Source: Paraburkholderia tagetis (GTDB lineage: Bacteria; Pseudomonadota; Gammaproteobacteria; Burkholderiales; Burkholderiaceae). From it: a stretch of DNA of 64,000 bases. Positions 10,283 through 60,509 of the stretch are shown piece by piece. A model generated the notes under the pieces. The model saw only the letters and a program-made list of their open reading frames with translations, ran no database searches and was not told the DNA's origin. The DNA lies in contig NZ_JAKLJA010000001.1 of NCBI RefSeq assembly GCF_022213065.1, positions 558,001-622,000 on the forward strand, read 5' to 3'. Position numbers and translations under genes: made by a program. How positions within the stretch are numbered: the first letter of the stretch is position 1; each line of letters begins with the position of its first letter.

Positions 10283-11509
10283 TCAATCGCTCCCGAAAAG
10301 CAGCGGTTGCACAGCGCCATTCGCATACACCGTTTCGAGCACCACGTCGCCAGTCGGCTCGTCGCCTTCCCAGCCTTGTGGCCATGTCTCGGCGTCGATG
10401 AGTTCGCGTATGCGTGCCTCTTCCTCCGCGTCGATCAGGTTGATGAGCGGGCGCCCGGTTGCACGCGCGACGCGGTTGCATTCGTCCTGGATGGAAAGGA
10501 TTCGATCGAGGCCCATCAGGCGTGCTTCGAAAACGAGCGGCCCGAGGCGTTGCGGATTCTTGGCGATCGAGCCGTCTTTGAGCCGCTCGAGACCGGCTTT
10601 GCGGAGGCGATGCTGCGGCTCGCGCAGCTCACGCCACAGCGGCTTGATGCCGCGCAGCGGCGCAAGGTATGACCACTGCGGATTGCGAAGTACCGTTTCC
10701 AGCGCCGTTTCCTCTTGCGCCAGCGCGCAGCCGATGCAGCCCGTGCGCGCGTTCAGCTCTTCCGCCTCGTCGCCGCCGTAAGCGTCCGCGATCGCCGCAG
10801 TCGACCAATCGCCGAACTCTTCCTCCGGCGCCCAATGCCGCAGCCATTCCCACACGTGGCAGACGCGCCAGTGAAGCAGCGGTGCGAGCGTCGCGATGCG
10901 GCCGCGCAGGCCTCGCGCATTCGGTAGCACCTGCTGATACCAGCCTTGGCCGCACTCGGCGCCGTCTTTTCCGCAGCTCATCTCGATGCGTCGGTCGCGA
11001 ATTGCGCTCTCACCCTGGCGCACGCCGGTGATCATCAGGATGTTGCCGCCGAGTCCTTCGATGCGCTTCCGCAGCGCTTCCTCCATCGGATCGATCTTGA
11101 TCTGGCGAGTGCACCAGCGCAACGTGTTGTTGTTCGGCGGCGGCACGCCGCGGCCGAGGATATACACCATGAAGCGCTTGTCGAGCGGCGCGCGCACGAC
11201 CTCGACGGCGATGCCGCGCTCGCGCAGCTCGTCCATGATCTGCTCGGCGGAGATTGCGAGCGGCGTGAGCTCTTGCCGAGTATCGGCGTAGAAAACGGTC
11301 AACGTCTTCGGGCGCGCGAGCTTGCCGGTGTCGAGCAGCCAGCAAATGATCGTCAGTGTGGCCGTGCTGTCCTTGCCTCCCGACCACGCTACGCCCCAGT
11401 GATCGTGCGAAGGGCCATAGGCCTGCATCGACTGGATCGTCAGCTCAATCGATTCGTTCATCTGCAGACGCTGGGCTCCCGCAGCGAAGATGTCGATCTG
11501 GTGGCTCAT
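10283..11509 (-). CDS. DndC/PAPS-reductase-like ATP pyrophosphatase
   Basis: 408 residues of the adenine-nucleotide alpha-hydrolase superfamily. The PP-loop SGGKDS is at 43-48. Other hallmarks are FYADTRQE, RWCTRQIKIDP, ITGVRQGES and a late paired-cysteine GCIGC. This combination is seen in PAPS reductases and in DndC, which provides sulfur chemistry in DNA phosphorothioation and carries an Fe-S cluster. No other dnd genes are visible, so a stand-alone phage role (sulfur metabolism or DNA/RNA thio-modification) is possible but unproven. The start at 11509 is chosen because an upstream ATG would overlap the previous gene. Confidence 0.75.
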   Translation of the reverse strand: MSHQIDIFAAGAQRLQMNESIELTIQSMQAYGPSHDHWGVAWSGGKDSTATLTIICWLLDTGKLARPKTLTVFYADTRQELTPLAISAEQIMDELRERGIAVEVVRAPLDKRFMVYILGRGVPPPNNNTLRWCTRQIKIDPMEEALRKRIEGLGGNILMITGVRQGESAIRDRRIEMSCGKDGAECGQGWYQQVLPNARGLRGRIATLAPLLHWRVCHVWEWLRHWAPEEEFGDWSTAAIADAYGGDEAEELNARTGCIGCALAQEETALETVLRNPQWSYLAPLRGIKPLWRELREPQHRLRKAGLERLKDGSIAKNPQRLGPLVFEARLMGLDRILSIQDECNRVARATGRPLINLIDAEEEARIRELIDAETWPQGWEGDEPTGDVVLETVYANGAVQPLLFGSD

Positions 11510-11525
11510 GTTTCGTCTCACGAGA

Positions 11526-11708
11526 TTAAAAAAGTTCGCCCTGCGCGGGCTGCTGTTGTTCATTCATCGACGCAGCTTGCAATCGGCGCTTTGCTGCCCA
11601 CTTCAGAAGCGTCGCGTGCCATCCGTGGTGAATGCCCTGCAGGCGCACGACCATCGCCTGATGCAGGTAGGTCTTCGCCATGCGGATGTGCCACTCGCGC
11701 TCGCTCAT
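11526..11708 (-). CDS. Small hypothetical protein coupled to the reverse transcriptase
   Basis: 60 residues, MSEREWHIRMAKTYLHQA, with basic helices and a C-terminal QGELF tail. Its ATG overlaps the stop codon of the reverse transcriptase (ATGA), so the two are translationally coupled. No known family. It may be only the next early gene rather than a DGR component. Confidence 0.55.
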   Translation of the reverse strand: MSEREWHIRMAKTYLHQAMVVRLQGIHHGWHATLLKWAAKRRLQAASMNEQQQPAQGELF

Positions 11709-12829
11709 GATGTGGAACGTCGGAACGTCTTCGTCATTGATCCGTCTACGGCATGGCCGCGAGAGCGCACGACATTCGCCAGACGCGCGCGGTCCTGATG
11801 GCTGGCCGTCGCCTGTCGCATCAGCCCGAAGTAACTGTTCGCCATTTCGTGGACGTCATCGGCGGCCGCGTGCGCAACACGGCGCAGCGCTTCATTGAAC
11901 GTGCGACGGCGCGTATGGCGCCGCCACGGCTTGATCACCTGGCCGACGAAATCGATTCCCATGTCGACCGGCTGCAGGATCGTCTTGCGCGGGTTCAGAC
12001 GCACGCCGAGGCACGCGGGCAGGAAAGCGTCGACGTCACGCAATGCCGCGTTGAGCCAATCGGCCGACTCGTGCAGAAACAGGAAGTCATCTACGTAGCG
12101 GATGTAATGCCGCGCGCGCAGCACGTGTTTGGTGCGCTGGTCGAGCACGTCCAGATAGACGTTGGCGAAAAACTGCGACGAGAGATTCCCGATCGGCAGC
12201 CCCAGGTGCGTCGGCTGGTTCATCAGCCGCTTGTGCGGCGGCACGAGGTCCGTCAAGCGCGGATCGCCGCGCATTTCGAAGTCGGTGCGCGGGTCGTGCA
12301 TCAGCACCTTGTTGGTGAGATCCATCCACCACTGATCACCGATCCGCTCGGCAAGCAGATCGCGCAAGATGAGCTTGTCGATGCTGACGAAGAAGTTCGC
12401 CAGATCGCACTTCAGGTAGTACGCCGGGCGGCTCCAGTTCTGCGTGATACTGCGCACCTTGGCTTCGAGGCGTTGCGCAGCGTAGAGCGTGCCGCGCCCC
12501 TTGATGCAGGCGCAGCTATCGGCGATGAACGAGCGCTCAAAGCGCGGGCCGATGCGGTTGTACAGCAGATGGTGAACGATGCGATCGCGGAAATCAGCCG
12601 CCCACACTTCGCGCGGCTTCGGCCGGGTGACGACGAAGCAGATCGACCGGCGCGGCTGATAGCTGCCGTCGCACAGCTCATCGAAAAGCTCGCGCAGATT
12701 GCGCTCGAGGCTCACCTCGAACGCGAGCGCGCTGGGACGGTTGCGCTTGGTGCGCCGGCAGTCGAAATAGGCGGCGACGAGATCGCCGAAATTCAGGTCA
12801 GCATGTCCGGATAAATCTGCGGACGGCAC
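11705..12829 (-). CDS. DGR reverse transcriptase
   Basis: The mutagenic reverse transcriptase of the diversity-generating retroelement. It copies the template-repeat RNA into cDNA with adenine-specific errors. Counting from the GTG at 12829 it has about 374 residues, normal for DGR RTs. Motifs seen: CDLANFF (catalytic Asp about 142), the DGR-type LPIGNLSSQFFANVYL (213-226, IGNxxSQ where group II intron RTs have QGxxxSP), and the active-site YVDD (245-248). There is no maturase or endonuclease domain. The frame stays open upstream through the template repeat to 13108, so the exact start is uncertain. The GTG lies inside the repeat, which would make TR RNA and RT mRNA overlap. The stop overlaps the next gene. 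Confidence 0.93.
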   Translation of the reverse strand: MPSADLSGHADLNFGDLVAAYFDCRRTKRNRPSALAFEVSLERNLRELFDELCDGSYQPRRSICFVVTRPKPREVWAADFRDRIVHHLLYNRIGPRFERSFIADSCACIKGRGTLYAAQRLEAKVRSITQNWSRPAYYLKCDLANFFVSIDKLILRDLLAERIGDQWWMDLTNKVLMHDPRTDFEMRGDPRLTDLVPPHKRLMNQPTHLGLPIGNLSSQFFANVYLDVLDQRTKHVLRARHYIRYVDDFLFLHESADWLNAALRDVDAFLPACLGVRLNPRKTILQPVDMGIDFVGQVIKPWRRHTRRRTFNEALRRVAHAAADDVHEMANSYFGLMRQATASHQDRARLANVVRSRGHAVDGSMTKTFRRSTS

Positions 12830-12906
12830 GCGCGCGGCAATTGTTGTTGTCCTTGTGGTTGTTGTTCTGGTTGCCGTTGTTGAAGTTCTGATACCAGGCG
12901 AACGCG
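12814..12906 (-). repeat. DGR template repeat (TR), 93 bp
   Basis: On the minus strand it reads like the end of a target gene packed with AAC/AAT codons (NNGNQNNNHKDNNNC in the target frame), the usual adenine-loaded template. It aligns without gaps to 13457-13549, 13943-14035 and 22177-22269. Every one of the 42 differences (15, 13 and 14) lies at a TR adenine; all G, C and T positions are identical. The 3' 27 bases, ending in a GC-rich stretch, are invariant and should serve as the initiation-of-mutagenic-homology region. Confidence 0.97.
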
Positions 12907-13049
12907 TACCAATCGTGCTTTCTACGTCGCCCGGTCGATTGCTCAGCTGGGAAACTGCGCCGGACGAAACCGGCTCTATGCCGGTGGTTTCCGTGATGCG
13001 CATGGCGTTGGCCTTGTGGGCCAGCGGCACGACCAGATTTAAAAGTCGC
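12907..13049 (-). ncRNA. avd-TR spacer, probable part of the DGR RNA
   Basis: 143 bases between the avd stop and the template repeat without a credible gene. In studied DGRs the RNA used by RT-Avd includes the avd-TR spacer. A clear hairpin is present: ACCGGC-ATAGA-GCCGGT on the minus strand (12969-12985), followed by a second self-complementary GCCGG/CCGGC pair (overlapping alternative). The assignment as a structured DGR RNA segment is inference from position and pairing. Confidence 0.5.
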
Positions 13050-13424
13050 TCAGTCATGGCGGCCTTGACCTCCATGAAGCGGGCGAAGTGCGGACCTGCG
13101 CCACCCATTGGCCTGCTTTCCGATGCTCGTCGTGAGTTCGATCGCCTTCGCGTATCCGCGAGTCGAAAGGAAGCCCTTGTCGCGGGCGAGCCGAAACATC
13201 AACTCAACGACCTGCTGGCGTTCGATCAACTCCATCAGATGAGGCGCCTTGTCCTGCGCGACGTTGGCCCGGAAGATCAGGATCGTGATCTCGACGCATT
13301 CGTTGGTGATCTTGTCACCGATGGAGCGCTTGAAATCGCGTTGCATGTTCTTCACGAGACTCGTTGCAAAATCGAGCAGGTCATAAGCGACCTTGTAAAT
13401 CGGAAGATGTGTATGGGTGGCCAT
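13050..13424 (-). CDS. avd: Avd-type four-helix-bundle DGR accessory protein
   Basis: 124 residues, helical and basic throughout, matching the bAvd/four-helix-bundle family: PIYKVAYDLLDFATSLVKN, then MQRDFKRSIGDKI, then ANVAQDKAPHLMELI and ARDKGFLSTRGYAKAIELTT. Avd forms a pentameric barrel that binds the reverse transcriptase and the template RNA and is needed for mutagenic retrohoming. The gene order target, avd, TR, RT is the same as in the Bordetella BPP-1 element. Its ribosome-binding site is weak; it starts 20 bases after the target 1 stop. Confidence 0.92.
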   Translation of the reverse strand: MATHTHLPIYKVAYDLLDFATSLVKNMQRDFKRSIGDKITNECVEITILIFRANVAQDKAPHLMELIERQQVVELMFRLARDKGFLSTRGYAKAIELTTSIGKQANGWRRSALRPLHGGQGRHD

Positions 13425-13443
13425 GCTGATCTGAATAATTAAA

Positions 13444-13905
13444 TTACTGAATTTCTAATCTGCGGACGGCACGCGCGCGGCAACCGTCGTCGCCCTTGCG
13501 GTCGTAGTACTGGAGGCCGTCGTAGAAGCTCTGAGACCAGGCGAACGCGGCATTCGACTCGTGCTCTTCGGCAGACCAGTACCAGGTCTTTTCGAAGTAC
13601 TGCTTCAAATTCGCGAACAGCAGCGATTGCTCGCGCCGCGTCGGCAGTTCTCCACCATGCTCCGCTGCCCACGACTTTGCTGCGGCCCACGTGCTGCCTT
13701 CCGCATCGCCCGGCAACAAAATCAGGTGATGGCTCGGCTTTCCGTCATCGCCGAGGAGAATCCCCGCGTAGGCCTCGCCACTGGCGAGGTTCATGGTCGC
13801 GGCCGCGATCGAGATCACAGTGGTTTCATGCTGTCGCTTGAACTGCGCGATCAACCCTGCGAGTTCCGACTGCTTTTCTTCGAGTACTTCTAGCGTGAGC
13901 GTCAT
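13444..13905 (-). CDS. DGR target protein 1 (DUF1566/CLec-like)
   Basis: 153 residues. The N-terminal 45 residues are a predicted helix rich in E/Q (TLEVLEEKQSELAGLIAQF). The rest resembles the DUF1566 C-type-lectin-like fold: YAGILLGDDGKPSHHLILLPG, ELPTRREQSLLFANL, WYWSAEEH, FAWSQSF and a C-terminal CRARAVRRL. The last 31 codons are the variable repeat. No signal peptide or membrane segment is present, so the protein is expected in the cytoplasm or as a virion or secreted passenger. RBS AAGG lies upstream. Its ligand is unknown; diversification implies variable binding. Confidence 0.9.
   Translation of the reverse strand: MTLTLEVLEEKQSELAGLIAQFKRQHETTVISIAAATMNLASGEAYAGILLGDDGKPSHHLILLPGDAEGSTWAAAKSWAAEHGGELPTRREQSLLFANLKQYFEKTWYWSAEEHESNAAFAWSQSFYDGLQYYDRKGDDGCRARAVRRLEIQ
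13457..13549 (-). repeat. DGR variable repeat 1 (VR1)
   Basis: A 93-bp copy of the template repeat ending 10 bases before the target 1 stop codon. It differs from TR at 15 positions, all opposite TR adenines (for example AAC to TAC, GAC or CTC). The encoded variable positions are in the FAWSQSFYDGLQYYDRKGDD segment, a Tyr/Asp/Gly-rich surface typical of selected DGR binding sites. Confidence 0.97.
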
Positions 13906-13932
13906 GGCTGACCTTGTGAAATTGATGAATGA

Positions 13933-14295
13933 TTAAATGGGCAATCTGCGGACGGCACGCGCGCGGCAATCGTCGCTGCCCTTGCGGGTGAGGTCCTGGT
14001 AGCCGGTGTTGAAGTGCTGACACCAGGCGAACGCGTCGTTGCGGTGATACGTCTCGTTGCTCCAGTACCAGTCCTGTTCGAACTGGTCGCGATGGTTCGC
14101 CCACAGCATCGCTTGCTCGATGCGGTTCGGCAGATCGCCGCCGATGCTCCTGGCCCATTCGGTTGCGGACGCGTGCGTATCGCACTTGTGGTCGCCGGGC
14201 AGCAGAATGACGTGGTGGAAGTCGCCGTTCTTGTCGCCGATCGCACCGATGTAGATCTCGCCTTCAGCGAGCGGGGGAAGCTGGATCTGTTGCAT
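13933..14295 (-). CDS. DGR target protein 2 (DUF1566/CLec-like)
   Basis: 120 residues, homologous to target 1 from residue 15 on: IYIGAIGDKNGDFHHVILLPG, DLPNRIEQAMLWANH, DWYWSNETYH, FAWCQHF and a C-terminal CRARAVRRL. It lacks the long N-terminal helix of target 1. GAGGA lies upstream of the ATG. It is the promoter-proximal member of the target pair and ends 27 bases before target 1 begins. The C-terminal 31 codons are VR2. No signal peptide or transmembrane segment. Confidence 0.9.
   Translation of the reverse strand: MQQIQLPPLAEGEIYIGAIGDKNGDFHHVILLPGDHKCDTHASATEWARSIGGDLPNRIEQAMLWANHRDQFEQDWYWSNETYHRNDAFAWCQHFNTGYQDLTRKGSDDCRARAVRRLPI
13943..14035 (-). repeat. DGR variable repeat 2 (VR2)
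   Basis: A 93-bp gapless match to TR with 13 differences, all at TR adenines. It has a different substitution set from VR1 and VR3, showing independent mutagenic events. Some adenine sites are unchanged. It is followed downstream (minus direction) by an AT-rich motif shared with the other variable repeats but absent after TR. Confidence 0.97.
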
Positions 14296-14336
14296 TTTTA
14301 TCCTCGGAAAAAACGGGGCCTATGCGAGCACCCCTT

Positions 14337-14364
14337 CAAAACCGGCGCGCGAGACAGGCGCCGG
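14337..14364 (-). terminator. Weak intrinsic terminator upstream of the DGR targets
   Basis: CCGGCGC/GCGCCGG arms (14342-14348, 14358-14364), 9-base loop, followed on the minus strand by TTTTG. It lies between the coiled-coil gene and target 2 and may reduce or regulate read-through into the DGR cassette. Confidence 0.45.
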
Positions 14365-14375
14365 ACGGGAGCAAA

Positions 14376-15050
14376 TCAATTGGGACGCCACTCACTGCCG
14401 CGTACCACCCTGCCAACCGGTTCGCACACCAGTACTTCAGACTCCTTTTCGGATCGCACGAGTTGCGATGCACGGCGCTGCGCCTTCTCGATGGTCTTGT
14501 GACGCTTCGGCTTCGCATAACGGCCGACGGTCACGTAGACCTCGTTCGGCTTGAACTCGGCATCGACGATCGTGAGCTCGTCGATGCGCCGCTCGAGCGC
14601 CGAGTTGTTCTCGCGCAGTTTCGCGACGGCCCGTTTCAGTGCATCGTTTTCGACCTTGAGCTCGTCGCGCTCGGTTTCGATCTGCAGGCGCTCAGCCGCG
14701 GCGGCATCGCGCCGCGCGGTGAGATCATCGACATGGTTCTGGAGCGCGGCGATCTGACGTTCCATAAACTTGTGTTCGACCGGGTCGATGACTGTTGCGG
14801 GTGCCGAGTCAGTCTTCGCTTCGAGAGCGACAGGCTGGCTCTGCGTTTCCGGCGCCCGCTCCGTACGAGAAAGCCAGTAGTAGTACTCATTTCCAGCGCC
14901 ATGCTTTTTCTCGCGTTCGACAAGACCGTCATTCAGCATGTGATTGAGCTCACGGGCCACGTCCAGATGATCCATGCCGACTTTCAAAGCGATGACCTTG
15001 GCGGTCGATTGCTGAACTGTGCCAAGGTACTTGACGATGTCTTCTCTCAC
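14376..15050 (-). CDS. Winged-helix plus coiled-coil phage protein
   Basis: 224 residues from a GTG preceded by GGAGG. The N-terminal 65 residues look like a winged helix-turn-helix (DIVKYLGTVQQSTAKVIALK, VARELNHMLNDGLVEREKK). A coiled coil follows at about 100-175 (MERQIAALQNHVDDLTARRD, AKLRENNSALERRIDEL) and a small C-terminal domain with YVTVGRYAKPKRHKTIEKAQ. Probably a DNA-binding accessory protein of the early operon; function unknown. Confidence 0.65.
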   Translation of the reverse strand: MREDIVKYLGTVQQSTAKVIALKVGMDHLDVARELNHMLNDGLVEREKKHGAGNEYYYWLSRTERAPETQSQPVALEAKTDSAPATVIDPVEHKFMERQIAALQNHVDDLTARRDAAAAERLQIETERDELKVENDALKRAVAKLRENNSALERRIDELTIVDAEFKPNEVYVTVGRYAKPKRHKTIEKAQRRASQLVRSEKESEVLVCEPVGRVVRGSEWRPN

Positions 15051-18855: not shown

Positions 18856-20073
18856 TTACTCAACGCTCGGCGCGGCGCCGCGCGCGCGGCGAGCGGTGCG
18901 TTCGAACTTCTGGCGAAGTGAAACGGCGATGGCAGTCAGCCGCTCCTCGGCATCCGGATCCGGCACATCGGCGATCAGCGCGATCGCGGCGTTGAGTTCG
19001 TCGCTGTTGCTCGCGGCATTCAGGCGCTCGGCGATCTTCGCCTCGGGCAGCGGCTCGGACTTCGCGACGGTCTGCGCAGGAGCCGCGCTCTGGCCATCCG
19101 GGCTGGTCGTTTCGCCATGCTCGGCGCCCTGCTGATGGACTTCGCTTGCCGGATCGGGCTGCTCGGTGCTTGCCGCAGTTTGCTGCGCCTGTTCGGCGCG
19201 CTGCGCTGCGGGCGAGATGTTTGAGCGGCGCAGCGATTCAACGTCAACGGCATAGGAGCCATCGGGCTGCTGCGTCACATCGATCGTGTCGACCGCTTCC
19301 TCGGTCGTGTGACCCATGCCCATGACGATGTCGGGCGCGTGAATGTTTCCGAAGAACGAGCCGGCGCGGTACTGCAGCATCAGGTACTTCATTTCCGTCT
19401 GCCACTTGCTGCCCGGCTTCGCATACCAGCCTTCCTCGACCGCCATCTTCATGCTGACGGGCGCGGACTCGATGATCGGCAGCTGGACGTTGCGCGCCTG
19501 CGCGAGCGTCTGCACATTTGCGGGCAGCGCGATCGAACGCGGGATCGTCCAGGCGACGCACACGAGGTTCTCAATCTCGACCTCGTGCTCGGTCATGTCA
19601 TAGCGACGCTGCTGTTTGTTGTAAGCGCCCTTTTCCTTGTATGTGGCCTTGATCATCCCCTTGTTGACGATGTCGAAGCGCAGCGGGTGGAAGCGGCCCG
19701 AAGCATTGATCGCGGCGATGACGAACTTGCCGGACCAGCGGAGCTTGCCCTCGATCACGTCGGCGTTTTGCATCACCGCGGTCACGGACATGCGCACGGC
19801 CTGCGCAACTTCGAGCGCGACCAGACCGTTGCCGACTGCTGACGGGTTGGGGACTTCGACGTCGACGTAGTCTTCGCCTCGACGCTCACGCTTGATGATG
19901 GTCGAACGAAACTGCGCAGGCACAGCGTTGCTCGATGCGAAAGCCGTCGCGATACGCTGCGCGAGCGCGAAGCCCTGCGCGGAGAACATGTCGACGCTGA
20001 CATCCGTGGCGCCGAGCCCATGCGGCTTCTGCGCTACTTCGGCCAGCGGCCGCGATTGATTCGGTGCGTTCAT
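18856..20073 (-). CDS. RecT-like single-strand annealing protein
   Basis: 405 residues. The conserved part spans about 20-270: FSAQGFALAQRIATAFASS, VGNGLVALEVAQAV, VMQNADVIEGKLRWSGKFV. This matches a RecT-type recombinase layout found in Burkholderia phages. The C-terminal third is a low-complexity Q/A/E linker plus a small helical domain (IAERLNAASNSDELNAAIAL). Its partner nuclease is encoded immediately downstream (20085-20885 lies upstream in transcription). Family call is by pattern, so moderately sure. Confidence 0.65.
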   Translation of the reverse strand: MNAPNQSRPLAEVAQKPHGLGATDVSVDMFSAQGFALAQRIATAFASSNAVPAQFRSTIIKRERRGEDYVDVEVPNPSAVGNGLVALEVAQAVRMSVTAVMQNADVIEGKLRWSGKFVIAAINASGRFHPLRFDIVNKGMIKATYKEKGAYNKQQRRYDMTEHEVEIENLVCVAWTIPRSIALPANVQTLAQARNVQLPIIESAPVSMKMAVEEGWYAKPGSKWQTEMKYLMLQYRAGSFFGNIHAPDIVMGMGHTTEEAVDTIDVTQQPDGSYAVDVESLRRSNISPAAQRAEQAQQTAASTEQPDPASEVHQQGAEHGETTSPDGQSAAPAQTVAKSEPLPEAKIAERLNAASNSDELNAAIALIADVPDPDAEERLTAIAVSLRQKFERTARRARGAAPSVE

Positions 20074-22166: not shown

Positions 22167-22547
22167 TTAAATGGGCAATCTGCGGACGGCACGCGCGCGG
22201 CAAAGGTTGAGGACCTTGTGGCTGATGAGCTGGTTGCCGTTGCCGAAGAGCTGACACCAGGCGAACGCGTCGCTGTATTCCTCAATCGACCAGTACCAGT
22301 CTTCCTCGAACTGCTCGCCCAGATTGGCGAACAAAAGCGATTGCTCGCGGCGCGTGGGCAGTTCGCCACCAATCGAAGCGGCCCACTCCTTTGCGTTGTG
22401 CCACGTGCCATCGTCGATGTCGCCGGGCAGGAGGATCACGTGATGGTTCGGTGCGCCATCCTTTCCGAGCAGAACGCCTGCGTAGTGCTCGCCCTCATCC
22501 AGCTTCGGAAAATTGATCGATACGGTCTCGCTAATTTGGTTTTCCAT
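22167..22547 (-). CDS. DGR target protein 3, remote (DUF1566/CLec-like)
   Basis: 126 residues, homologous to targets 1 and 2: YAGVLLGKDGAPNHHVILLPG, ELPTRREQSLLFANL, EDWYWSIEEYS, FAWCQLF and C-terminal CRARAVRRL. GGAGAAG precedes the ATG. The variable repeat occupies the last 31 codons. Two features of target 1 (PTRREQSLLFANL) and the 3' flank of target 2 are shared, so the three genes are paralogues. It lies about 9.3 kb from the template repeat in the same transcription unit. Confidence 0.9.
   Translation of the reverse strand: MENQISETVSINFPKLDEGEHYAGVLLGKDGAPNHHVILLPGDIDDGTWHNAKEWAASIGGELPTRREQSLLFANLGEQFEEDWYWSIEEYSDAFAWCQLFGNGNQLISHKVLNLCRARAVRRLPI
22177..22269 (-). repeat. DGR variable repeat 3 (VR3), remote
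   Basis: A 93-bp gapless match to TR with 14 differences, all at TR adenines. The invariant 3' 27 bases and the 5' FAW-coding bases are identical to TR. Encoded variable residues are more hydrophobic (L, I, V) than in VR1, indicating a different binding surface. Confidence 0.97.
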
Positions 22548-23603: not shown

Positions 23604-24398
23604 TTAGTTCCCTCCAGCCATTGCCGACCCCGAGCGATAGATCACTTCGCCAACGATCTTGACGAGTTCCATACTCTCGGCCGGCACTTCCCGATCCGGG
23701 TACTTGCCGTTGTAAGAGTGCAGCACGATGCTGCCTCCGACCTGTTTGAAGACCTGCTTTACGAGTGGCTCGTCCTCGAAGTAGATCGCATAGACCTTAC
23801 CATCGCGCACGTGCGTCCTGGTGGAATCCACCATCATCATGTCACGGTTGAACAGGAAAGGCTCCATGCTGTCCCCGCGCACCGTCAGCAACTTGCAATC
23901 TTTGGGCTTTGAGCCGAGCGCTTTGAAGAACCCGATATCGAACGGCAGCGCCTTCTTCTGCCTGACTTCCCATTGGATCAAGCCTGTCCCCGCCGAAAAA
24001 TGATAGTCATAGCGGTCGATCCAGACTCGATCTTCATCGGGCTCTAGGTCTTCTGGCCGCTCCCATGTGACGACGTTACCCTTATCGTCTGGAAGCAAAC
24101 GCTTAATAAGCGACTGATCTTGACCTGTTACCTGGGCACCAGCCTGCGGCGAGTTGTGCTCTTCGATTGCGAAGCCGAAGTCGAAGTACATCTTCGCCAG
24201 CCCAAGCTCTTCTTCGAAGCGACGCGCGGCGCGCTCACCGAATGATTGCCCTTCTCGATAGTTGGGATTCAGCACCTGTCGGACGCGAGCCGCATCTTGG
24301 TTGTGGTTGCGGGCGAACTCGGCAACGTTCCCTTTAGCCGTCTCGTCGGCATCAATCAGCGCTCGCAGGCGCCGGCGGCGGTGCTCGTGAATATCCAT
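23604..24398 (-). CDS. CI-type phage repressor (S24/LexA family)
   Basis: 264 residues. The N-terminal part (1-65) is a DNA-binding domain. The C-terminal part is a peptidase S24 domain with catalytic Ser177 in RGDSMEP and Lys214 in PLVKQV. An Ala136-Gly137 pair in HFSAGTG lies 41 residues before the Ser and is a plausible self-cleavage site, so SOS-induced (RecA-stimulated) inactivation is expected. It is divergent from the Cro-like gene across operators at 24421-24490 and maintains lysogeny by silencing both early promoters. Confidence 0.88.
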   Translation of the reverse strand: MDIHEHRRRRLRALIDADETAKGNVAEFARNHNQDAARVRQVLNPNYREGQSFGERAARRFEEELGLAKMYFDFGFAIEEHNSPQAGAQVTGQDQSLIKRLLPDDKGNVVTWERPEDLEPDEDRVWIDRYDYHFSAGTGLIQWEVRQKKALPFDIGFFKALGSKPKDCKLLTVRGDSMEPFLFNRDMMMVDSTRTHVRDGKVYAIYFEDEPLVKQVFKQVGGSIVLHSYNGKYPDREVPAESMELVKIVGEVIYRSGSAMAGGN

Positions 24399-24420
24399 GG
24401 CGCAATTAGAACCGAAAACT

Positions 24421-24490
24421 AGCATTTGCTGTGATCGCAAAAGTTATCAATTGCGCAAGCATTTGCTTGCTCTTTGCGAAAGCAAATGCT
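24421..24490. promoter_or_regulatory. OR-like operator cluster (three sites)
   Basis: Three exact copies of the 10-bp pseudo-palindrome AGCA-WW-TGCT: AGCATTTGCT at 24421-24430 and 24458-24467, AGCAAATGCT at 24481-24490. The middle one lies in a 16-bp palindrome GCAAGC-ATTT-GCTTGC. The last overlaps the -10 of the rightward promoter, exactly as the matching site does at PL. This is a lambda-like three-operator arrangement. Confidence 0.75.
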
Positions 24491-32183: not shown

Positions 32184-32515
32184 ATACCAGATTCAAGTCG
32201 GGGTCCTTGGCAGTCGTGATCCAGGCCGGCGATCCGCACATCACGCCCGGGCTCGTTGACCGGATCGTGGAAATCGTCCGACCCGCAATCGATGGCGAGG
32301 AATTTATATCAATCGATGGCGTGGTGGTCACGTGCAGGGATAGCAGGTCGATATGGGTCGTAAAAAGCCGTTCACCGTTGCCGTGGATCTGCGTGCAGGG
32401 AGCGGATGCCGGGAAAGTTCGCCTGTTCCGCGAACGCGCAATCGCCGATCAATACCTTCGCCCGATTAGCGGCGTGCCGGTGACCAGAGATGTGAAAGAT
32501 GAGGTGACCGCGTGA
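32180..32515 (+). CDS. Hypothetical phage protein
   Basis: 111 residues from the ATG overlapping the preceding stop: TRFKSGSLAVVIQAGDPH, VTCRDSRSIWVVKSRSPL. A small beta-rich protein with no recognised family. Tight overlaps support its reality. Confidence 0.5.
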   Translation: MNTRFKSGSLAVVIQAGDPHITPGLVDRIVEIVRPAIDGEEFISIDGVVVTCRDSRSIWVVKSRSPLPWICVQGADAGKVRLFRERAIADQYLRPISGVPVTRDVKDEVTA

Positions 32516-32937
32516 GTACGAGCGTGTCGATCCATCAGGAATTCGTTCTCTGGGATGGCGGCGTCTGGTCGAAGCTAGTCGAGTTCGTCAAGGCTACCGC
32601 GCCGGATCTCGCCGACAAAGGCACGCCGCTTCGCGTAATCGTCACCGAAGAAGAAGCGGACCGTCTGGATGTGCAGATCCGCTACTACTTCGGCGTGACG
32701 GTGAAGACGATCGCCGAACAGGCGTGGATCAACGGGCGCCAGTTCGACAAGGATGCTTGGCACGAGGAGCTCGCGAAGATGTTCCTGCCGACGCGCGAGA
32801 TCGTCACGCCGAGCGGCGAGATTGTGCTCAAGCGCAGTTCGGTGGCGCGTGGCCACATCAGCGTGAAGCGGATGGCGAAGTTCACGCAAGAGGTCGAGGC
32901 GTACGCGACCTCCGAACTCGGAGTCGTTTTCGAATGA
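32512..32937 (+). CDS. ninB: NinB-like recombination protein
   Basis: 141 residues with the NinB arrangement: TPLRVIVTEEEADR, a QIRYYF segment equivalent to the conserved Q-N/R-Y/L stretch, WINGRQFDKDAWHEELAKMF and STAR-like RSSVARGHISVKRMAKFTQE. NinB binds single-stranded DNA and belongs to the RecFOR-type function in lambdoid phages. GTG start overlapping the upstream gene. Confidence 0.7.
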   Translation: MSTSVSIHQEFVLWDGGVWSKLVEFVKATAPDLADKGTPLRVIVTEEEADRLDVQIRYYFGVTVKTIAEQAWINGRQFDKDAWHEELAKMFLPTREIVTPSGEIVLKRSSVARGHISVKRMAKFTQEVEAYATSELGVVFE

Positions 32938-33278
32938 CTGCGCGACTGATCGGACTCCCGAAAGTTCTCACCTATCGCAACCAGCGCATCCGCGATTCGG
33001 CGCGCGACGAGGAATGTCTCGTGCGGCTGCCCGGCGCGTGCACGCACGATCCGCGCACGACGATCTGGAGTCACTACCGCGGCGAGGCAGGCGGCAAAGC
33101 GGGCGCCCTGAAGGCCGACGACCTCTGCGGCGCGTACGCGTGCACGGTGTGCGACGCGATCTACGACGGTCAGCGCAAGCCGCCGAAGGGCATGACCTAC
33201 GCCGACGTGGTGATGGCGTGGTTCGAAGGGCACATCCGTTCAATCGTGCGCTTGCACGCAAAGGGGATTCTCAAGTGA
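32934..33278 (+). CDS. DUF1364 putative nuclease
   Basis: 114 residues matching DUF1364: RNQRIRDSARDEECLVRLPG, CTHDPRTTIWSHYRGEAGGK, LKADDLCGAYACTVCDAIYD. The Cys/His pattern suggests a zinc-bound HNH-like fold. Often found near NinB and RusA in phages. ATGA overlap with NinB. Confidence 0.75.
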   Translation: MTARLIGLPKVLTYRNQRIRDSARDEECLVRLPGACTHDPRTTIWSHYRGEAGGKAGALKADDLCGAYACTVCDAIYDGQRKPPKGMTYADVVMAWFEGHIRSIVRLHAKGILK

Positions 33279-33490
33279 GCCAAACCATCACCTTCGAACG
33301 CTGGGAAGGCAACCATCCTCGCCTCCAGTGCGTGTGGAACGACGAACTGCGGTTCTTCCCGAACGAGGAAGCGGCGCGCGCGTGGGCGCATCGGCAGGGA
33401 TTCAGGGCGGTATTTCCCGAGACGGCTGTCGCCGAGCTGCGCGGCGTTGCGTATCAGTTTCTGGGCATAACTGGCGAGGAGCAGGCGTGA
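33275..33490 (+). CDS. Small hypothetical phage protein
   Basis: 71 residues with a GTG start overlapping the preceding stop: ITFERWEGNHPRLQCVWNDE, NEEAARAWAHRQGFRAVFPE. An alpha/beta fold is likely. No family recognised. Confidence 0.5.
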   Translation: MSQTITFERWEGNHPRLQCVWNDELRFFPNEEAARAWAHRQGFRAVFPETAVAELRGVAYQFLGITGEEQA

Positions 33491-33681
33491 GATTTGAGGC
33501 GCTCCTTCCGAAGCTGGAACTGAATCAGGGATCGGCCGGTGCGACGCGGCGCATCTGGAAGAACCGCGCCTATGTGGTGATGGGGTATAGCAGCCGACTG
33601 TACATCGTCGTCGGCGCCAGGAATCTGCCCTACGCCCTTTCTTTCGAGGACGCGATCGCAGACGACTGGATGCTGATCTGA
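33487..33681 (+). CDS. Short Tad2-like (DUF2829-type) protein
   Basis: 64 residues: MRFEALLPKLELNQGSAGAT, RRIWKNRAYVVM, LPYALSFEDAIADDWMLI. The pattern (a starting FxxALxxL, an R-W in the next strand, and a closing D-I-x-A-D-D-W) matches the DUF2829/Tad2-like fold used by phages to sequester Thoeris cyclic-nucleotide signals. A second member is at 35052-35624. Family call by pattern only; anti-Thoeris activity is inference. Confidence 0.45.
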   Translation: MRFEALLPKLELNQGSAGATRRIWKNRAYVVMGYSSRLYIVVGARNLPYALSFEDAIADDWMLI

Positions 33682-58836: not shown

Positions 58837-59385
58837 ATGAGCGTCTATGTGAGAATTCAGAGCGGGATCGTTGCAGAAATCATCGCCCCAATGCTCGATG
58901 GATCTGGCGTGGAAATTCCAATTGCCAGCCGGTTCTACCCGCTCGTCGCGGCGACTCTCGTGGACGTCACCGCCTATGCCGTTGAGCCGCGGCCTGGGTG
59001 GGTCGCCACTGAATCTTCCGGGGCTTGGGCGTTTTCAGCGCCAGTCCCGGTAGCTCTCTCTGGCGCACAACAGGCGGCTGTCGCGTTCTCCGCAGGGATT
59101 CAGATCAAAAGCACGGCAACTGCTTCATTGAATGGCACGTACAGTATCGATACTCTCAGCCAGTCAGATATCATTGCCATTGAGACAGGTCTGAACGCGG
59201 GAAAGGGATTCCCCGATGGCTCAACGATGTTCAACTATCCTGACGCATCCGGGATCATGCATAGTTTTTCGGAGGCGGATTTTTCGAATTTTGCCGCAGC
59301 CGTAAGGGATTATGTATATGCGTTGCGGTCTGCGGTGGCTGGCATATCAACAAGCCTGCCGTCGCCTGCTGCAACAATCCCTTAA
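58837..59385 (+). CDS. Tail-fibre accessory protein, DUF4376-like
   Basis: 182 residues. The N-terminal half resembles short phage proteins placed after fibre genes (YVRIQSGIVAEIIAP). The C-terminal half (AAVAFSAGIQIKSTATASLN, GTYSIDTLSQSDIIAIETGL, FSEADFSNFAAAVRDYVYAL) matches the DUF4376-type layout of fibre assembly proteins. Its stop overlaps the stop of the opposite acyltransferase gene. Confidence 0.65.
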   Translation: MSVYVRIQSGIVAEIIAPMLDGSGVEIPIASRFYPLVAATLVDVTAYAVEPRPGWVATESSGAWAFSAPVPVALSGAQQAAVAFSAGIQIKSTATASLNGTYSIDTLSQSDIIAIETGLNAGKGFPDGSTMFNYPDASGIMHSFSEADFSNFAAAVRDYVYALRSAVAGISTSLPSPAATIP

Positions 59386-60509
59386 ACCGGATTCCGTGTA
59401 TTCGTCGTCGATCTGAACCGGGATGCGAGTCTCGCATAACTCAGGAGCGGCATTTCAATCTTTCGGTGCACGAAAATACCGATAACTGCACAAATTGCCA
59501 TGAAGAATGCGAACGCTACAGGTCTCATTAAACCAGACATTTCTGGATACCGTTTCAAGGTCGTCTCGACTATCACAGCGACAAAGGGATGCGTGAGGTA
59601 GATTGAGAATGAAGCCTCTCCGAGCAAAAGAATCGTTCTGGATGACGCGCACAGCCCCTTGTTATTCAGGAAAAGTGCAAAAAGAACCGTCGCGAACGGA
59701 AGCATGAAATAGAGAAACATTGCCGGAGCGTAGCCAATAAGCGCCTTTATTTCCCGGAGTGGGAAATAGTTAAAGGTGGAAAGAGCGATGGCGATGACGA
59801 TACCAATTGTCCAGCGATGAGTGACGACCCAATTCTCAAACGAAGCTGGACGAACATGCCAGATGTAGTACGTTGCTATGCCCAGCACGAAGAACCCCGT
59901 ATAACGATCGCCATAAAACATCAGGAGTTCGCCTGGGTCTATTGTAATCCAGACAGATAACTTCACGAATAAGATGACAATCGCGGTCAGAATAGGCGCC
60001 CACCGCGTGTTGATCATCAGGCATACGGCGAAGATGACGTAGAAGTACATCTCAAGGTTGAGTGTCCAGCCTACACCAAGCACGGGGAACATGAAGCCCT
60101 GATCGTTCCTGAAAGGAATGAACGTCAAACTACGGACGAGTTGGCCAACAAGCTGACCATCAGTGAAACCTGTCTTATGTTCTAGATACCATTGCAACGT
60201 GGTGCGATCATGTAATAGCCATCCCCATATCTGAGGGATCTTGTAGATGGGATTCATCAACTCAAGGTTGATCAACATGAAGAATGCGATCGTGCACACC
60301 CAATAAAGCGGTACAACGCGGGTAATGCGATTTACCATAAACCCATCAGCGCGCGATCGCGAGATGTGAGTCATGATGAATCCGCTCACTACGAAGAAGA
60401 TCGCCACCGCCTTAAGGTCAGTGTGCACACCACCAAAGATATAGCTGCCGTGGAAGTACACGACAGCCATCGCCGCCAGTGCGCGCAACAGTTGGATATT
60501 CGAGATCAT
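59382..60509 (-). CDS. Acyltransferase 3 family membrane enzyme (O-antigen acetylase type)
   Basis: 375 residues, about ten hydrophobic helices. Family motifs: QLLRALAAMAVVYFHG near the N-terminus (the conserved R and H), FFVVSGFIM, RITRVVPLYWV, and SFSIYLTHPFVA. These enzymes acetylate surface polysaccharide and cause phage-mediated serotype conversion. It is on the opposite strand to the late operon, AT-richer than its neighbours and next to the fibre genes, all typical of a lysogenic-conversion gene acquired by transfer. Confidence 0.88.
   Translation of the reverse strand: MISNIQLLRALAAMAVVYFHGSYIFGGVHTDLKAVAIFFVVSGFIMTHISRSRADGFMVNRITRVVPLYWVCTIAFFMLINLELMNPIYKIPQIWGWLLHDRTTLQWYLEHKTGFTDGQLVGQLVRSLTFIPFRNDQGFMFPVLGVGWTLNLEMYFYVIFAVCLMINTRWAPILTAIVILFVKLSVWITIDPGELLMFYGDRYTGFFVLGIATYYIWHVRPASFENWVVTHRWTIGIVIAIALSTFNYFPLREIKALIGYAPAMFLYFMLPFATVLFALFLNNKGLCASSRTILLLGEASFSIYLTHPFVAVIVETTLKRYPEMSGLMRPVAFAFFMAICAVIGIFVHRKIEMPLLSYARLASRFRSTTNTRNPV

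Follow-up and report, generated by a model that had tools for sequence, protein, structure and literature searches.

Mutagenic retrohoming by diversity-generating retroelements (DGRs) has been worked out for phage BPP-1 (PMC12875486), and according to Roux et al. DGR variable regions usually adopt the C-type lectin fold, viral targets are mainly tail proteins and a typical target has several domains. DiGReF records as its 'group 3' a class of cassettes whose template repeat (TR) overlaps one end, 5' or 3', of the annotated open reading frame (ORF) of the reverse transcriptase (RT), and the paper on phage Magia states that genes 47 and 57 of that phage carry potential target sequences. Here we describe a DGR in a 64,000-nucleotide (nt) stretch of Paraburkholderia tagetis DNA (contig NZ_JAKLJA010000001.1, positions 558,001 to 622,000; hereafter the window). 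Judged from its sequence, this element is a complete DGR, possessing an RT, an Avd protein, a TR and variable repeats (VRs) that differ from TR at adenines only. We consider it highly probable that it belongs to a tailed prophage and that RT and Avd mutate VR1, VR2 and VR3 of three small proteins by way of complementary DNA (cDNA) copied from TR.

The RT gene occupies 11705..13003 of the window on the minus strand, which is the strand of every component of the element described below. Its translation carries both the YVDD and IGNLSSQ motifs named in a preliminary description of this DNA, and searches against DGR RT profiles place it where that description had expected, with a match to phrog_1423 at E = 6e-114, an RVT_1 match above cut-off and phage BPP-1 bRT (8ub7, E = 1.7e-30) as the closest solved structure. 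Other structures matched less well (group II intron maturase, 1.9e-8; an entry named 'retron-type', 1e-4; entries named as retron RTs, at least 0.05), and a retron or group II intron RT was ruled out on the comparison of E values of 0.05 and 1.9e-8 with 1.7e-30 for bRT. Upstream of RT, the bAvd-like product of 13050..13424 scores 45.2 bits against Pfam bAvd (cut-off 40) and also matches the PHROG Avd family phrog_3206. We assign the element to the DGRs because its RT is closest to that of BPP-1 and its Avd matches Avd families; the RT, Avd and target reading frames are all intact.

TR lies at 12814-12906 and comprises 93 nt (29 A, 31 C, 20 G and 13 T on a scripted recount). It aligns without gaps to VR1 (13457-13549), VR2 (13943-14035) and VR3 (22177-22269), from which it differs at 15, 13 and 14 positions, respectively. 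All 42 of these differences fall at TR adenines, and at the G, C and T positions of TR every one of the 192 comparisons is a match; 42 of the 87 adenine comparisons differ, with 22 of the 29 TR adenines changed in at least one VR. The probability of this distribution for 42 randomly placed differences (log10 P about -21) is a guide only, because the aligned segment was bounded where matching of G, C and T stops. The 3' 27 nt of TR (12814-12840), which are identical in TR and the three VRs, resemble an initiation of mutagenic homing (IMH) segment. When the whole host genome was searched (8.52 Mb in 119 contigs), TR and the three VRs were each recovered at E of 4e-22 or lower and no further copy of TR or VR rose above noise, the next match having an E value of 0.069. 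The preliminary description had reported the same repeat length, gapless alignments and adenine-only differences, as well as the minus-strand order target 2, target 1, avd, TR, RT, and our recount reproduces all of these exactly. The span it gave for the element, 11705..14295, holds everything from target 2 to RT and misses VR3, which sits in a separate minus-strand ORF at 22167-22547.

The three VRs belong to target 1 (13444..13905, 153 residues), target 2 (13933..14295, 120 residues) and target 3 (22167..22547, 126 residues). A model of target 2, obtained with a predicted local distance difference test (pLDDT) score of 93.6, matches structures of the C-type lectin fold and places its VR at the C-terminus. 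For targets 1 and 3, which share 51% and 58% identity with target 2, the fold is assigned by sequence, and target 1 additionally gives a weak Lcl_C match below the Pfam cut-off. Taken as predictions, these results suggest that the targets are binding proteins with a C-type lectin fold. Profile searches recognized no virion-anchoring domain in the three window targets. Short length is widespread among related loci, in which 141 of 156 automatic ORF calls for targets span 116-218 residues.

These related loci came from a scan of 101 oriented sequences, namely the window, the phages Magia and QDWS, the best-ranking 80 out of 331 viral contigs and 18 stretches from genomes of the same genus. A TR-VR pair of at least 80 nt was found in 94 of them, and merging identical RT cores reduced these 94 to 78 unique loci. 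The seven sequences left out were L024, L036, L045, L048, L063, L127 and L128; L036, L045 and L063 offer fewer than 600 nt upstream of RT. The L048 sequence has a nearly full-length RT match and 10 kb of upstream coverage, yet no TR-VR pair. Among the phage records, OP650936 (a 'Tenericutes' phage) and OK094664 (a Shewanella phage) are both 47,902 long and give nearly the same match, and one of the two host labels is doubtful.

Across 170 unique TR-VR pairs, 2187 of 5290 adenine sites differ compared to 41 of 11884 other sites, a ratio inflated towards adenine because the scan penalizes non-adenine mismatches. Pairwise alignment of 11 pairs of loci depends less on that scan. In the pair L035/L037, 14 of the 15 differences in 2,235 bp fall in VR1 and all 14 are at TR adenines, and the single difference in 3,700 bp between L055 and L059 is a TR-adenine site of a VR. 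Adenine sites likewise account for 28 of 28 differences in two VRs of L069/L051 (207 differences overall), 7 of 8 in a VR of L024/L025 (31 overall), 37 of 39 in the VRs of L035/L038 (752 overall), 23 of 23 in the VRs of L009/L010 (1119 overall) and 15 of 19 in a VR of L021/L023 (860 overall). For the diverged pair L065/L067, whose TRs differ, 49 of 72 VR differences are at TR adenines. Differences between the VRs of relatives concentrate at TR adenines, and other sites do not change at a similar rate. The preliminary description had the element as active now or in the recent past; these alignments indicate recent activity in close relatives, as in L035/L037, and by extension the window copy would probably have been active as well. 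Two prophages of a single genome, G120 (G120:C1, 1293100-1312100 and 1433400-1452400), have the same RT, TR and near VR, with extensive divergence around the second target. Aligned as L120/L121, they show 0 differences in the near VR and 1196 in 3,700 positions overall; since the second VR has 46 differences, 13 of them at TR adenines, amid this divergence, the stretch that holds it is not the same target in the two copies.

Directly upstream of TR, the window matches the structured RNA family RT-15 (Rfam RF03018) at 12906..13088 on the minus strand, with a score of 174.8 bits against a gathering threshold of 82 and a 3' end that abuts TR. The name of this family we take to reflect an association with reverse transcriptases. 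RT-15 also exceeds gathering in 7 of 7 further loci (of the 14 first chosen), where its 3' end lies 1-4 nt from the start of TR. Of 144 genomes of the same genus, 15 carry a total of 17 hits above the cut-off, each followed 86-125 nt downstream by an RT hit, and four more hits below the cut-off occur in other genomes of the genus. In one carrier, G022, the RT match is in two pieces with a stretch missing; G017 and G059, whose RTs are broken or degenerate, have no match to RT-15. The only match among 369 genomes of the class is that in the window's own genome, a sample uninformative on the spread of the family. No other Rfam family, RF03022 included, matched window positions 11000-15000 at E of 1 or lower. 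An RT-15 feature is already annotated in the record of phage Cruim01, flanked by the RT gene and by a small gene that occupies the Avd position, and the literature that we searched did not name RF03018 or RT-15 RNA; an earlier link to DGRs is possibly already in print (Weinberg 2017, Wu 2018). What our comparison would add is the placement of RT-15 at the 5' edge of a DGR template.

The predicted RT start, ATG 13003, lies inside RT-15, such that the RT frame runs through TR. Within the window TR, the RT frame (ending VPSAD) and the target frame (ending RARAVRR) are both open, and among the unique loci the interior of TR is free of stops in the RT frame in 78 of 78, in the target frame in 77 and in the unused frame in 41. 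With the first codon of TR counted, the RT frame is open past the TR start in 93 of 94 loci, the exception being L087, which has a stop there. We measured the distance from the invariant TR 3' end to the conserved AYxxCR motif of RT in 70 of the 78 loci (8 lack an exact IMH anchor); it ranges over nine lengths from 39 to 66 nt and is a multiple of three in all 70. Read in the RT frame, the 96-nt leader is free of stops in 72 of 78 loci compared to 1 and 6 for the other frames, and these loci are not independent because the leader is a conserved RNA. A conserved AUG within RT-15, located with a landmark pattern tuned on the sequences of these same loci, shares the RT frame with no intervening stop in 60 of the 78. 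An in-frame ATG inside TR is present in 17 of the 18 loci without a usable RT-15 AUG, as opposed to 31 of the 60 with one (Fisher p = 0.0008, uncorrected and on related loci); the one remaining locus, L031, offers different in-frame starts upstream. In 11 of the 70 loci no in-frame ATG, GTG or TTG occurs within TR or the linker, so that RT must start further upstream, barring a rarer codon. These patterns suggest that RT is translated from a start at TR or upstream of it, and that in part of the family translation would cross the whole TR. Divergence at fourfold sites is lowered only in TR (0.06-0.34) and the linker (0.30-0.45); values of 0.46-0.69 across the RT core led us to reject the idea that an extended constrained RNA within the RT gene replaces the BPP-1 spacer.

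Other cis-acting signals were also sought. The best stems within 60 nt downstream of VR1, VR2 and VR3 measure 5, 4 and 4 bp, respectively, compared to 8 bp for the inverted repeat 3' of the BPP-1 VR. Among related loci, stems of at least 6 bp follow the VR in 21 of 168 flanks against approximately 10 expected from shuffled sequences, none of them in the window, and a hairpin after the VR was rejected as a feature of this family. In 40 of 148 flanks the hexamer TTCATC follows the target stop by no more than 30 nt, whereas shuffled sequences predict 1.7 such flanks, and it is a possible substitute for the BPP-1 hairpin; the window flank at 13914-13932 is an example. No sigma-70-like promoter was found between 11500 and 25900, a search in which shuffled sequences gave 3.1.

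The targets lie among recombination genes. Between target 3 and target 2 are genes for a phage exonuclease (20085..20885, phrog_69) and a RecT-like single-stranded DNA annealing protein (18856..20073, phrog_561, E = 2.2e-49), both on the DGR strand, and for an SbcC-like protein, and target 3 itself is located approximately 1 kb downstream of a repressor-like Peptidase S24 gene (23604..24440) on the same strand. From about 36 kb onward the plus strand, opposite to the targets, carries matches to families for terminase, tail sheath, baseplate and tail-fibre assembly. The preliminary description had noted neither this setting of the targets nor RT-15 or the frame shared by TR and RT. To place VRs in phage genomes we scanned the whole records of Magia, QDWS, LPPA56 and SC_8, 50,000 of the 50,033 bases of Haboob and 50,000 of the 55,699 bases of Cruim01, with a script that recovers the BPP-1 VR in mtd as a positive control (17 of 23 adenines changed and nothing else). 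It found 3 VRs in Magia, 3 in QDWS (the third with one non-adenine mismatch), 2 in Haboob, 2 in LPPA56, 3 in Cruim01 and 2 in SC_8. The 11 VRs of Magia, QDWS, Haboob and Cruim01 all lie on one strand between the annotated repressor and integrase; for the 4 VRs of LPPA56 and SC_8 the annotation is too poor to allow such placement. Homologues of the window's exonuclease, RecT and SbcC-like proteins occur in 8 loci only, the window included, and the others have other modules or short flanks. From gene position, the targets would be expressed early, and the window family appears to depart from both the tail-protein and the multi-domain norms described by Roux et al. Two further genes of the window are of note: a PAPS-reductase-like gene (10283-11509, minus strand, phrog_12882) lies directly downstream of RT and has counterparts near RT in L029 and L072, and an acyltransferase-3 gene (59382-60509, minus strand) at the tail-fibre end is a possible lysogenic-conversion gene, an acyltransferase being likewise annotated near the tail genes of Magia and QDWS.

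We propose mutagenic retrohoming of the kind established for BPP-1 as the best account: RT and Avd would copy the 93-nt TR into adenine-mutated cDNA, which would then replace VR1, VR2 and VR3. A single leftward transcript over avd, RT-15, TR and RT may serve as messenger and template at once, with RT-15 as the 5' module of the template RNA and the recruiting RNA likely upstream of TR. Translation of RT might begin at the RT-15 AUG (13003), or inside TR in those relatives without an RT-15 AUG, and because the RT start would lie in RT-15 or TR, ribosomes and reverse transcriptase would compete for one RNA. Insertion of the cDNA into the VRs may be assisted by the RecT-like protein, whose gene neighbours those of the targets. 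More speculatively, such elements could form a second branch of phage DGRs, not directed at tail fibres and housed in an early recombination operon of temperate phages, whose small, free and continually altered C-type-lectin proteins act within infected cells or lysogens much as antibodies would, with host defences or competing phages as their targets, and in which one RNA is both RT messenger and template, RT-15 is the recruiter and RecT the cDNA helper. We regard this extended proposal as unlikely to hold in full.

Several observations weigh against parts of this account. The RT-15 AUG is present and out of frame in 8 of 78 loci, and the window TR contains its own possible RT start, GTG 12829; a further alternative, ATG 13057, overlaps the avd stop. 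Selection on the amino acids of the leader was rejected, as the ratio of nonsynonymous to synonymous substitution rates (dN/dS) is 0.81 in the RT frame and 0.84 and 0.89 in the shifted frames, compared to 0.13 in the RT core, and the modelled RT has pLDDT below 50 at residues 1-15 and 19-66. Since dN/dS reveals no constraint and model confidence is this low, the leader may yield a peptide only as a by-product, or none at all. As regards activity, the pairs L074/L077 and L018/L019 show zero differences, and the duplicate prophages of G120, with identical near VRs and wide differences elsewhere, are uninformative as a test. An ordinary DGR of the BPP-1 type, in which RT starts at or just after TR, the leader is 5' flanking RNA and the apparent fusion arises from a chance start codon in TR, would accommodate the absence of amino-acid selection on the leader, the GTG in the window TR and the 48 of 78 unique loci whose TR contains an ATG in frame. 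We nonetheless judge it improbable, as the BPP-1 hallmarks (TR abutting avd, the 144-nt gap, RF03022 and the 8-bp GC hairpin) are not found in the window, and the 11 of 70 loci devoid of usual start codons in TR and linker place the RT start upstream unless a rarer codon is used.

A different concern is whether the targets are receptor-binding virion proteins after all, either made early or added to the tail, with changes in host range as in BPP-1. The lectin fold common to DGR variable regions and the predominance of tail proteins among viral targets, both reported by Roux et al., speak for this, as does the suggestion of adaptation or host-range change in the Magia paper. The repressor-to-integrase location of all 11 assignable VRs, the position of the window targets beside recombination genes and opposite the tail genes (position being no proof of absence from the virion), their small size and the lack of a recognized virion-anchoring domain argue the other way, and we consider a virion role a serious possibility that falls somewhat short of even. 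It is very improbable, on the other hand, that the element is a decayed relic with old adenine differences: the best RT among the relatives searched is 84% identical, with no near-identical copy of the window element, and degenerate RTs exist in G017 and G059, yet the window frames are intact and the VRs have not drifted, because all 192 non-adenine comparisons still match TR. Should the proposed account be borne out, a named RNA family, RT-15, would gain a job, DGR template RNA would have two layouts, a widespread class of phage DGRs would be diversifying proteins that are perhaps not receptor-binding, and the binding partners of non-tail DGR targets would become directly testable in isolated phages.

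Set beside described systems, the window element is most similar to that of Magia (MT701587), which has the same order of target, target, avd, RT-15, TR and RT, an RT 77% identical to that of the window and, as in the window, a third target near the repressor. Beyond the two genes named in the Magia paper, as far as its available sections go, our scan finds a VR in gene 46 (32316-32780), with 11 of 27 adenines changed and no other change; in those same sections, RT-15 and the presence of TR within the RT frame go unmentioned. The overlap recorded for DiGReF group 3 is a statement of annotation, whereas here conservation of frame was measured in 70 loci together with start codons. In contrast to the Legionella Lcl C-terminal domain (DUF1566), targets of the window type are short stand-alone proteins. 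BPP-1 (NC_005357) shares with the window RT, Avd, TR, adenine-only VR changes and a C-terminal VR in its target. It differs in that its TR abuts avd and is separated from brt by 144 nt, which match RF03022 (Phage_DGR, 104.7 bits) 3' of TR in place of RT-15, in the 8-bp all-GC hairpin that follows its VR, and in the position of its target mtd among tail genes. The BPP-1 record also annotates a 'variable region 2' in bbp36 (33229-33558), in the early region between cI and an exonuclease gene. A syntenic DGR is reported in phage Magia, and what is new here is the set of differences from BPP-1: RT-15 upstream of TR, TR locked in frame with RT, and the location of the targets.

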